From positions 1 to 64,000 of the forward strand of contig NZ_JBDJAW010000004.1 in the NCBI RefSeq assembly GCF_039649665.1: a DNA stretch of 64,000 bases. Direction: 5' to 3'. Shown here piece after piece: positions 33,220 through 51,926 of this stretch; the stretch's first letter is position 1; each line of letters starts with the position of its first letter. The notes below the pieces were generated by a model. It was not told the origin of the DNA. It saw only the letters and a list, made by a program, of their open reading frames with translations, and searched no databases. Both the position numbers and the translations under genes were made by a program. This stretch comes from Microbispora sp. ZYX-F-249. Its GTDB lineage: Bacteria > Actinomycetota > Actinomycetes > Streptosporangiales > Streptosporangiaceae.

Positions 33220-34365
33220 GTGCGGGTGCGGAGATGGGCGGCCGACATCGGGCTTGGTGTCGTGTTCGCGGTGGTGCTGGCCTTCTGGGCCTCCCGGGTC
33301 GCGGACAGCTGGGGCGGCGGCTACTGGCGGTTCGGCTGCGCCGCGGGGGCAGTGGTCTGCGCCGCCGCCCTCGCACGCCGGCTCGACCGCACACGGGCGG
33401 CCGTGGCCGGCCTGGCCGTCGCGGCGACCGCCGTCCTGGCCTCCCGGTTCGCCGGGCTGCCGAGCGAGCCCGGCCCCGGCATGGCTTTGGGCCTGTCGGT
33501 GCTGGTGGGTTCGGCGGTGCGGGTGCTGCCCGTGCACGTCGCCCGCGCCGTGGCGGGCGGCGGCCTCGCCGTGGCGGTGGGCAGCCTGCTGTCCGCGCAC
33601 GCGCTCACCGCCGGGGTTCCCTCCGTCACCGCGCTGAACGTGGCGGCCTGGCTCGCGGGCGTCGTGGCCGGGCTGGTGCCGCGGCTGCTCGACGCCCGCC
33701 GGCGGGCCGCCGCCGAGGCCGTGCGCCGCGCCGAGCGGCTGGCGCTCGCCCGCGAGCTGCACGACGTCGTCGCGCATCACGTCACGGGCATCGTGGTGCA
33801 GGCCCAGGCCGCCCGGATCGTGGCGCGCAGGAGTCCCGAGAAGGTCGGCGGCGCCCTGGCGGACATCGAGGCCGCCGGTTCCGACGCGCTGGCCGCGATG
33901 CGCCGGGTCGTCGGCCTGCTGCGCGACCCCGGTGACCCCGCAGGCCCGGCCGCACCCGCGGGGCTGGACGAGCTGGTCGGACGCTTCGAGGCCGACGGCC
34001 GCGCCGTACGCGCGCGGCTGCCGGACGAGGAGGAGACGGCCGCGTGGCCGCCCGAGGTGACCGGCACGGTCTACCGGGTCGTGCAGGAGTCGCTGACCAA
34101 CATCGCGCGCCACGCCCCGCAGGCCCGCTCGGTCACGGTCAGCGTGGAGCGGGACCGGGAGGCCGTCACCGTCGAGGTCGCCGACGACTCGCCGCGCGGC
34201 CCCGCGCGGCACCACCAGCGCGGCGGGTACGGCCTGCTCGGGATGCGCGAGCGGGTCGAGGCCCTCGGCGGCACGCTGCGGGCCGGGCCGCGTCCCGGGT
34301 CCGGCTGGTCGGTGCTCGCGACTCTGCCGGTCCCCGGGCGTGACCAGCGATGTGACCAGCGATGA
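33220..34365 (+). CDS. Sensor histidine kinase, HisKA_3 (NarL-partner type)
   Basis: A 381-aa kinase with four or five N-terminal TM helices and little extracellular sequence, so it probably senses a membrane or intracellular cue. The dimerisation/phosphoacceptor motif ARELHDVVAHHVTGIVVQAQ places the phospho-His at residue 181. The HATPase region has VVQESLTNIARHAPQ (N-box) and GGYGLLGMRERVEALGGTL (G-box). It overlaps the response regulator by ATGA at 34362-34365. Confidence 0.92.
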   Translation: MRVRRWAADIGLGVVFAVVLAFWASRVADSWGGGYWRFGCAAGAVVCAAALARRLDRTRAAVAGLAVAATAVLASRFAGLPSEPGPGMALGLSVLVGSAVRVLPVHVARAVAGGGLAVAVGSLLSAHALTAGVPSVTALNVAAWLAGVVAGLVPRLLDARRRAAAEAVRRAERLALARELHDVVAHHVTGIVVQAQAARIVARRSPEKVGGALADIEAAGSDALAAMRRVVGLLRDPGDPAGPAAPAGLDELVGRFEADGRAVRARLPDEEETAAWPPEVTGTVYRVVQESLTNIARHAPQARSVTVSVERDREAVTVEVADDSPRGPARHHQRGGYGLLGMRERVEALGGTLRAGPRPGSGWSVLATLPVPGRDQRCDQR

Positions 34366-48930: not shown

Positions 48931-49257
48931 TCAATCGGGCAGGCCCAGCACGTCGTCGAGGGCGACGACCTCGATCAGGTGGCGCAGATAGGGGGTGAGC
49001 GCGACGATCCGGAAGCCGGCCCCGCGCTCCCCCGCCCCCATGTAGGCGTTCATCATGACGGCCATGCCCGAGGAGTCGATGAACTTCAGCCCGGACAGGT
49101 CGAGTTCGAGCAGGCGCAGGTCTTCGGCGAGCGCCTTGTCCACCGCGGCGGACGCCTCGTCCGCCGCGCTGAAATCGAGCTCACCGGTCATCACGAGGCG
49201 CACGGCGCCGGGCTCGGAAACAAGCGACTCGACCTGGAACGGGGGCGTGTCCTGCAT
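48931..49257 (-). CDS. STAS-domain anti-anti-sigma factor
   Basis: A 108-aa SpoIIAA/RsbV-type antagonist. The conserved phosphorylation loop is LKFIDSSGMAVMMNAYMGA with phospho-acceptor Ser62. The N-terminal strand pattern GAVRLVMTGELDFSAADEAS is typical. ATG 49257 overlaps the stop of the cobalamin-binding gene by one base (TGATG), so the trio SpoIIE-B12-STAS is one coupled operon. Dephosphorylated, it would sequester an anti-sigma kinase, which is not encoded nearby. Confidence 0.92.
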   Translation of the reverse strand: MQDTPPFQVESLVSEPGAVRLVMTGELDFSAADEASAAVDKALAEDLRLLELDLSGLKFIDSSGMAVMMNAYMGAGERGAGFRIVALTPYLRHLIEVVALDDVLGLPD

Positions 49258-50264
49258 CAAACGCTCGTCTCTGTTCGTCGGACCGCGCAACACGACCGTG
49301 CCGCGGTGACGCCCTCGGTCAGCAGCACCCGGGCGCGGGGGCAGTCCGCCAGTACATCACGGAAAATGTTCAGCCCGAGCACGACGGACTCCGCCGGCAC
49401 GTTCCGGGCCGCCAGGACCCGGCAGGTCCAGGTGACGAAGTCGGTGAACAGCGAAGCGTCGTGGACGTAGATCGCGGCGATGAGGAAGTCGGCGAGGTGA
49501 CCGAGGTCCTCGCCGGTGTGCTCCCCGAGCGTGTCCATGACGCGGGACAGCAGTTCGGCGCGGTGCCGGGTCAGGTACGCGTACTCCTCGTCGCCAAGTT
49601 GGACCGCACCGTCATGGGCGGCGGGAAAGGACGGCAGCCCGGCGGCGAGCCGGTCGGCCGCCGCGTCGGCCGTGGGCGCCCACGCGTCCGCGCCGAGCAG
49701 CCGGGCGTAGCGGCCGTCGGCGCCGAAACCCGCCCCGCCGGCCAGCACGGGGATGCCCACGGCCTGGCAGGCCGCGATGGTGGCGTGCGCCCGGGGCAGC
49801 CGGGTCGGCAGCGTGCAGCCGAGCGCGACCACATCGGGTCCCGTCTGATGCAGATGAGAGATCAGGTGCGGCCCGGGCACGCTGGCGCCCAGGAAGTCGA
49901 CGTCCCACCCCCGCAGGCGCAGCACCTCCGCCATGATGCGGGTGGGCAGCGCGTGATACTCGCCGTCGGCGCAGGCCACGGCCACCCGGCCGCGTGTCGG
50001 CGCGGGCCGGACGTGCCCGCTGACGGCGGCCACCGCGCGCTCGCTGACCGCGGTGGCGGCGTGCTCGCGCGCCACCGACCACTCGTTCGACGCCCACAGC
50101 TCGCCCACCCGGCGCTGGCCCGGCGCGATGACCCTCAGCAGCACGTCCTCGGCGGGGACGCCCCCGTCGATCAGGTTCACGACCAGGTCGACCGCGCCGT
50201 ACTCGTCGGCCCGGCCGATCAGCTTCAGGTAGCGCCCGGTGGCGGCCTCCAGGTCCGGCGTCAT
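49257..50264 (-). CDS. Cobalamin-binding sensor with CarH-type photoreceptor signature
   Basis: A 335-aa soluble protein. Residues 1-80 form a helical bundle ending in Trp57-x9-Glu67-His68 (LWASNEWSVAREH), the motif that caps adenosylcobalamin in CarH photoreceptors. The B12 Rossmann domain (about 90-215) has Glu102-x-His104 as the probable lower axial ligand and GGAGFG at the end. No MerR DNA-binding domain is present. The C-terminal helical part (about 215-335, YVHDASLFTDFVTWTCRVLA) is unassigned. ATGA overlap with the SpoIIE phosphatase and TGATG with the STAS gene suggest it tunes a partner switch in response to light or B12. Confidence 0.87.
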   Translation of the reverse strand: MTPDLEAATGRYLKLIGRADEYGAVDLVVNLIDGGVPAEDVLLRVIAPGQRRVGELWASNEWSVAREHAATAVSERAVAAVSGHVRPAPTRGRVAVACADGEYHALPTRIMAEVLRLRGWDVDFLGASVPGPHLISHLHQTGPDVVALGCTLPTRLPRAHATIAACQAVGIPVLAGGAGFGADGRYARLLGADAWAPTADAAADRLAAGLPSFPAAHDGAVQLGDEEYAYLTRHRAELLSRVMDTLGEHTGEDLGHLADFLIAAIYVHDASLFTDFVTWTCRVLAARNVPAESVVLGLNIFRDVLADCPRARVLLTEGVTAARSCCAVRRTETSV

Positions 50265-51832
50265 CGCGACGTCCCCCTCCCCGCGCTCACGGCGAGCAGC
50301 GCCCGGTCGTCCTGCTGCCCGCCCCGCAACCACTCGGTGCTGAGCTGCTCCAGCCGCTCCACCAGCGCGTCGACCGGCATGCCCGCGCAGGTCGCCAGCG
50401 CCCGCTTCAGCCGCTCGTCGCCGAACATCTCCCGGCCGCTCGGGCCGCCGAACGCCTCGGTGATCCCGTCGCTGTACAGCAGGCACACATCGCCGGGCGC
50501 CAGGTCGAGCGTGACGGGCCACAGGCTGATCTTCTTCAGTGCGCCGAGGAGCGAGCCGCGGACGGCGACCTCCTCCACCGTGCCGTCCCGGCGCAGGACC
50601 AGCGGCGGCGGGTGCCCGGCGACGGACAGGTCCACCAGCACGTGATCGCCGGGGGCGCTCCGCAGCGCCGCGAGGATCATCGTGACGTAGGAGTTCGGCG
50701 ACGGGGACGCGAGCAGCGACCGGTTGAGCAGTTCCAGCAGCCGTTCGGGACGGCTTTCCAGCAGCAGCAGCGTACGCAGGCTGTGGCGGACCTGACCGGC
50801 CAGGACCGCCGCGCGGGCGCCCTTGCCGCAGACGTCGCCCAGGATGACCAGCGGAGGCCGCTCCACGATCCCGCTCTCCGGCGCGGCCTCGGGCAGGTAG
50901 ACGTCGTAGAAGTCGCCGCCGATGGCGCCCGCCTGCTGTGAGGCCCGCAGCCGGCCGGCCAGCCGCATGCCCTCGATCTCCGGCAGGTCCGGCGGCAGCA
51001 GGTCGCCGGTCAGGATGGCGTTGACCGTGCTCTGCTCCCGGAACAGGGAGGCCGCCGAGATCGCGGCGCCCGCCCGGGTCGCGAGATCGCACACCATCAC
51101 CTGGTCGTCCTCGTCGAACGGCGGCCGCCCGGCGCGGCGGGCGAGCACGATCGCTCCGGCCGGCACGCCGTTGCCGGGCAGCGGGAGCACCAGCAGGTGG
51201 CCGACCGGGCCGAAGCCCTCCGGCAGCAGCCAGCCCGGCGTGCCGGCCGGGTCCTGCCGTCCCGCGGCGTCCTCCCGCAGGCCCGCGAGCGCGTCGGTCA
51301 GGCCGGGCACCTCCGCCGCGGCGGCGGCCGGCACGACGCCCTCGTCCGGGCCGGAGCGGCCGGAGACGGCGCGCACCCACTCCATCCGGCGGCGGGCGGT
51401 GGGCGGCAGCAGCACGACCGCCGCGTCGCACAGGAAGTCGGTGCCCAGCTCCGTCGCGGCCCGGGCGCACCGGTGCGGGTTGAGCGAGGCGGACAGGCGC
51501 CGCGCGGCCTCCAGCAGGAACGTCGTACGCTGCGTCTGCCGGGGTTCCGGGGGCGTTTCCGCGGTCAGATACCAGGCGATCCGGCCTCCGCCCAACTCCT
51601 CGGCGCGGACCCGGATGTCCCGGCCGCCGTGCGTCAGGGTCCGTTCCTCCGGGGCGGACTGGACGGCGCCGAACAGGGCGGGCAGGGGCAGCCCCGGCTC
51701 GAGCCGCGGCACCAGTCGGACCGCGGCCGGGTTGGCCAGCGTCACGACGCCGTCGGCGTCGCACAGCACGACGCCCTCGCCGCCGCGCTCGAGCAGCGCC
51801 GCTATGACGTCGGGGGCGATGGCCCCTTTCAC
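50261..51832 (-). CDS. PAS/GAF-SpoIIE (PP2C-type) serine phosphatase
   Basis: A 523-aa regulator. The N-terminal PAS-like region is GEGVVLCDADGVVTLANPAA. A GAF-like domain (about residues 100-270, including RCARAATELGTDFLCDAAVV) follows. The catalytic SpoIIE domain has QQAGAIGGDFYDVYLPE, LVILGDVCGKGARAAVLAGQ and CLLYSDGITEAFGGPSGREM with the metal-binding Asp residues. It should dephosphorylate the STAS antagonist encoded two genes on. GTG 51832 has no strong ribosome site. The next gene overlaps by ATGA. Confidence 0.92.
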   Translation of the reverse strand: MKGAIAPDVIAALLERGGEGVVLCDADGVVTLANPAAVRLVPRLEPGLPLPALFGAVQSAPEERTLTHGGRDIRVRAEELGGGRIAWYLTAETPPEPRQTQRTTFLLEAARRLSASLNPHRCARAATELGTDFLCDAAVVLLPPTARRRMEWVRAVSGRSGPDEGVVPAAAAAEVPGLTDALAGLREDAAGRQDPAGTPGWLLPEGFGPVGHLLVLPLPGNGVPAGAIVLARRAGRPPFDEDDQVMVCDLATRAGAAISAASLFREQSTVNAILTGDLLPPDLPEIEGMRLAGRLRASQQAGAIGGDFYDVYLPEAAPESGIVERPPLVILGDVCGKGARAAVLAGQVRHSLRTLLLLESRPERLLELLNRSLLASPSPNSYVTMILAALRSAPGDHVLVDLSVAGHPPPLVLRRDGTVEEVAVRGSLLGALKKISLWPVTLDLAPGDVCLLYSDGITEAFGGPSGREMFGDERLKRALATCAGMPVDALVERLEQLSTEWLRGGQQDDRALLAVSAGRGTSR

Positions 51833-51926
51833 CTGTGCGTCCCCGTCATGGCCGCGTCCCCCGATTCCCGATTCGATCCTCCAGACTACCTTTGCCCCAT
51901 TGATGGAAATATCGCACTAATTTCGG

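Follow-up and report, generated by a model that had tools for sequence, protein, structure and literature searches.

Can a light-sensitive B12 protein set the state of a sigma-factor partner switch, rather than act on a promoter directly? The question is raised by three genes on the minus strand of a 64,000-nucleotide stretch of Microbispora sp. ZYX-F-249 DNA (hereafter the window), which encode a SpoIIE-type phosphatase, a cobalamin-binding protein and a STAS-domain protein (Table 1). As a preliminary description of the locus had noted, each gene overlaps the next on the same strand, by 4 nt between the first two (50261–50264) and by 1 nt between the second and third (49257). The conserved block upstream of the phosphatase gene is, from its alignment, a possible promoter or regulatory element. 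A SigB-type promoter (GTTT-N12-18-GGGNA) was absent from the stretches scanned upstream of this gene. A mini-ORF also lies here, ATGACGGGGACGCACAGGTGA (MTGTHR*; 51829–51849, minus strand), whose stop codon overlaps the GTG start of the phosphatase gene; similar mini-ORFs occur in most, but not all, of the aligned Microbispora upstream regions.

Table 1. Predicted features of the three-gene locus (positions in the window).
Feature	Position	Strand	Basis
SpoIIE/RsbU-type PPM phosphatase, 523 aa, GTG start	50261..51832	-	Pfam, AlphaFold2, Foldseek
Photocobilin, 335 aa, ATG start (coordinates include stop)	49257..50264	-	phmmer, AlphaFold2, VIA-align
CarH-type cobalamin-binding module: four-helix cap (W57, E67-H68) and Rossmann domain (E102-x-H104 lower ligand)	49632..50264	-	
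C-terminal phycobilin-type globin domain (photoglobin) of the photocobilin	49275..49607	-	residue mapping, fold match
Site of 14-residue (42 nt) in-frame deletion just N-terminal of bilin-binding Asp253, in comparison with SasPcob and with L180, the nearest relative	49515..49530	-	
STAS-domain anti-sigma-factor antagonist, 108 aa, ATG start	48931..49257	-	Pfam, motif
Block GGGGCAAAGGTAGTCTGGAG, 5' of SpoIIE, largely conserved in Microbispora with differing flanks	51879..51898	-	upstream alignment

Identity of the cobalamin-binding protein

Pfam assigned the middle protein to B12-binding families (B12-binding PF02310, E = 1e-15; B12-binding_2 PF02607, 2e-14). Searching solved structures with phmmer matched its residues 11–320 to SasPcob (8J2W/8J2X, E = 8e-89), a photocobilin from Saccharothrix syringae (Zhang et al. 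2024, PMC10979010), and also retrieved AbPcob (8J2Y) at 2.5e-45; CarH was matched at ~1e-6, over the B12 part only. Identity to SasPcob was ~50% (53% in the structural alignment to 8J2X). An AlphaFold2 model built from 61 relatives (mean pLDDT 94, pTM 0.90) aligned to 8J2X with a Z score of 37.6 over 321 residues (VIA-align) and, through the first ~210 residues, to CarH with a Z score of ~20; residues 220–326 of the model matched allophycocyanin (9i1r_I) at Z 13.0. The last ~110 residues of the protein, overlooked in the preliminary description, are thus a phycobilin-type globin. Together, the sequence match to SasPcob, the fold match to 8J2X and the allophycocyanin-like C-terminus identify the middle protein, by sequence and model, as a photocobilin: a CarH-type B12 domain with a C-terminal phycobilin-type globin.

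The middle protein had previously been described as CarH-type and lacking a DNA-binding domain. The motifs of the adenosylcobalamin (AdoCbl) site on which this assignment was based, W57-x9-E67-H68 and E102-x-H104 (E102-Y103-H104), are both exactly there in the sequence, and no DNA-binding domain was found, as Pfam reported B12-binding domains only and the model begins at the four-helix cap. The protein is not, however, a stripped CarH. CarH/LitR proteins have in common with it the cobalamin module, W-x9-EH and E/D-x-H, but CarH has a MerR DNA-binding domain at its N-terminus and lacks a globin, the opposite of the window protein on both counts. The domain order, cobalamin ligands and bilin contacts are instead those of SasPcob, whose residues W61, E71, H72, H108, H137, D270 and W296 correspond to W57, E67, H68, H104, H133, D253 and W279 here; the biliverdin-contact residues (Asp270, Trp296 and His137 of SasPcob) are therefore all present. 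Unlike SasPcob, the window protein has a 14-residue gap immediately N-terminal of the bilin Asp. AbDPcob (8J2Y) has the photocobilin core in common with the window protein at 35% identity, but has His in place of Asp270.

Across the aligned relatives, W61, E71, H72, E106, H108, D270 and W296 (SasPcob numbering) are near-invariant. Exceptions are an Asn for D270 at locus L020, a Tyr for W296 at L023, and the broken gene at L050. The W-x9-EH capping motif, checked in homologues, was kept in all complete relatives aligned.

The phosphatase, the STAS protein and their conserved linkage

The phosphatase matched SpoIIE in Pfam (PF07228, E = 1e-38), with a weak match to GAF. Its AlphaFold2 model (pLDDT 91) comprises a PAS-like domain (residues 7–91), a GAF domain (119–233), a 38-residue linker helix (241–278) and a PPM domain (289–517) that, by Foldseek, resembles the RsbU/RssB/SpoIIE phosphatases. 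The predicted metal-binding aspartates D307, D333, D455, D508 and D509 were invariant in 45 partner phosphatases. In RsbU, a related phosphatase, linker-driven dimerisation activates the enzyme, which the authors argue to be general (PMC12143880). Having PAS and GAF domains of its own, the window phosphatase may answer to other signals. The STAS protein (STAS_2 PF13466, 3e-16; STAS, 7e-14) has a candidate phosphoserine within D61-S62-S63-G. A PPM phosphatase with N-terminal PAS/GAF domains and a linker helix, together with a STAS antagonist, is the arrangement of RsbU/RsbP-RsbV-RsbW, Rv1364c and OsaC; the window differs from these systems in that its proposed input is a separate photocobilin and that no kinase adjoins.

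To ask how widely these genes travel together, we inspected photocobilin loci in other actinomycetes (nearly 90 records, some of them one place counted twice). A SpoIIE gene was the direct upstream neighbour, on the same strand, at every locus listed except the broken L050, in the window's family and in several others, including Micromonospora (L048) and Mycolicibacterium (L049). Distant B12-domain matches (L051–L062) had no SpoIIE neighbour and were not counted as photocobilin loci. The stop codon was compatible with a 4-nt ATGA/GTGA overlap at 25 of the 27 SpoIIE-photocobilin junctions inspected, a count that is only supportive because A or G is common before a TGA stop. In most lineages a STAS gene lies directly 3' of the photocobilin gene, often at -4, although it is often too diverged to be detected with the window's STAS protein. 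The coupling of a B12 sensor to a PP2C phosphatase and a STAS protein, proposed from the window alone, is thus a tight and widely conserved gene linkage. In a subset of Streptosporangiaceae no STAS gene was found directly downstream of SpoIIE-photocobilin, so the STAS protein need not be the sole substrate.

Several loci depart from this arrangement. In some Microbispora (L005, L006, L038, L045 and L186–L188), the SpoIIE and STAS genes flank a pair of neighbouring photocobilin genes; neither copy has lost the cobalamin or bilin residues in the rows inspected, and a heterodimer is therefore possible. A second SpoIIE-like gene adjoins the STAS gene on the opposite strand at two loci (L009:487-1125 and L010:2904-3584). 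In Planomonospora parontospora (L050:6001-6577), the photocobilin is broken into three separate matching pieces with no neighbouring SpoIIE match.

We also compared the partner phosphatases by phylogeny (IQ-TREE). The 54 photocobilin-adjacent phosphatase domains and the window copy formed one clade (98/98) that excluded 19 other SpoIIE paralogues of the window's genome, in a tree with several long branches whose partners came from many genomes and whose paralogues came from the window's genome only; four further paralogues from that genome gave no usable match. The tree places the photocobilin-adjacent phosphatases in one clade, which points to their common ancestry.

The window holds no RsbW-type kinase, as originally reported: its sole HATPase match, near 34000, belongs to an apparent two-component histidine kinase. 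Nor did we find a kinase or sigma factor adjoining the three genes in the window's genome. The missing neighbour is a local feature, as two loci from two other families (L153 and L154) have STAS, HATPase kinase, SpoIIE and photocobilin genes in one row. Similarity to the kinases of these two loci gave no unique candidate for a cognate kinase in the window's own genome, which holds many HATPases and so leaves the assignment ambiguous. At L153, a gene for an ABM-domain protein (PF03992; L153:7968-8291) sits between SpoIIE and photocobilin. The ABM fold family includes heme-degrading enzymes of the IsdG/MhuD type.

A candidate light-gated partner switch

The three genes are likely to be a single operon, translationally coupled, that works as a light-sensing partner switch. 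The dark state of the photocobilin would be a head-to-tail dimer with AdoCbl bound. Green light, or also red light if biliverdin is bound, would break the Co-C bond and free the adenosyl group, and this photolysis would remodel the Glu67-His68 helix and the photocobilin dimer. Altered engagement of the PAS-GAF-PPM phosphatase by the photocobilin would then change the linker-controlled phosphatase dimer, and the phosphatase would dephosphorylate the STAS protein at Ser62/63. Unphosphorylated STAS protein would sequester an anti-sigma kinase encoded elsewhere, freeing the sigma factor.

The steps of this model differ in their footing. For SasPcob, the photochemistry and a dimer-to-monomer change are established, and AbPcob and SasPcob control a diguanylate cyclase in trans (PMC10979010); loss of the adenosyl group and a change in the dimer are the likely first steps in the window photocobilin as well. 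AbDPcob is a precedent for enzyme control by a photocobilin, although its output is a fused GGDEF domain (diguanylate cyclase) and that of the window would be a separate PPM phosphatase. Direct binding to SpoIIE, the sign of control, the STAS protein as substrate and the sigma-factor output are steps that we infer. As a whole, a light-gated partner switch is a well-supported inference from the identity of the photocobilin, its linkage to SpoIIE, the single phosphatase clade and the families in which the row includes a kinase.

The operon is not a new idea, because photocobilins have been described and STAS/SpoIIE partners already proposed: SasPcob, like the window protein, is standalone, and Zhang et al. 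2024 named STAS, SpoIIE and PP2C proteins as its potential interactors (PMC10979010). The present analysis adds that the gene row is conserved, that the partner phosphatases probably share an ancestor, that some relatives include a kinase gene, and that heme oxygenase is missing from the Microbispora genomes examined (below).

Alternative readings and the supply of biliverdin

The photocobilin might regulate something else and merely share a transcript with the phosphatase and STAS genes. We find this improbable, as adjacency to SpoIIE is near-universal, with stop-start overlap, and the partner phosphatases form a single clade across several families. Somewhat less remote, but still unlikely, is a sensor that reads the supply of AdoCbl, with phosphatase activity depending on whether the protein is in its apo or AdoCbl-bound form and with photolysis as a by-product. 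Fold and motifs would also suit such a sensor, and apo and AdoCbl-bound AbDPcob differ in enzyme activity in the dark (PMC10979010); yet the complete relatives aligned all retain W/EH, the mark of photosensitive CarH-type domains, and the nearest relative with a solved structure responds to light.

A third possibility is a variant of the light-gated partner switch rather than its opposite. Here the Microbispora photocobilin would use B12 only, its globin serving as a structural or interaction domain with no biliverdin, so that the protein would respond to green light only and possibly with inverted sign. Heme oxygenase (PF01126) occurs in 76 of 151 genomes of the window's family, but a search of 15 Microbispora genomes gave no match; HugZ-type DUF2470 was not found in the window's own genome, nor a PHY-domain bacteriophytochrome in the genus. 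In addition, half of the primary Microbispora photocobilins (6 of 12), that of the window included (14 residues), carry deletions of 8–14 residues immediately before the bilin Asp, and among the rows listed no complete relative outside Microbispora does. With no PF01126 in these 15 genomes and deletions in half of the Microbispora photocobilins, the sensor may work without biliverdin, whose supply in Microbispora we regard as doubtful. Precedents exist: AbDPcob is a natural photocobilin with low biliverdin binding, and SasPcob without biliverdin reverses the effect of light and dark on AbDGC (PMC10979010). Against this, Asp253 and Trp279 are retained, many mycobacterial photocobilins occur without PF01126 yet carry no deletions, and biliverdin might come from other heme-degrading enzymes or from the environment. 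Relaxed selection on the Microbispora globin was likewise unsupported by divergence and dN/dS comparisons: the globin/B12 dN ratio was 2.05 in Microbispora, not clearly raised over the 1.11–2.06 seen elsewhere, and omega was below 1. Photocobilin and heme oxygenase co-occurred only weakly, both in the family (26/39 versus 50/112, Fisher p 0.025) and in the class (33/64 versus 127/331, p 0.053), comparisons that are confounded by ancestry. On balance we treat a B12-only photocobilin as a tentative possibility that we lean against. If true, a photoreceptor for two colours would have become an input that reads green light only, feeding a sigma-factor partner switch perhaps with opposite sign.

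To our knowledge, no physiological output has been established for standalone photocobilins. The SpoIIE-photocobilin(-STAS) row found in several actinomycete families, with a kinase in two of them, offers one that can be tested, running from light through a PPM phosphatase and a STAS protein to a sigma factor, and the loci L153 and L154 are small operons suited to reconstitution of the complete pathway. With the light-gated partner switch as the preferred reading, these soil bacteria probably use light to set a switch in gene expression.
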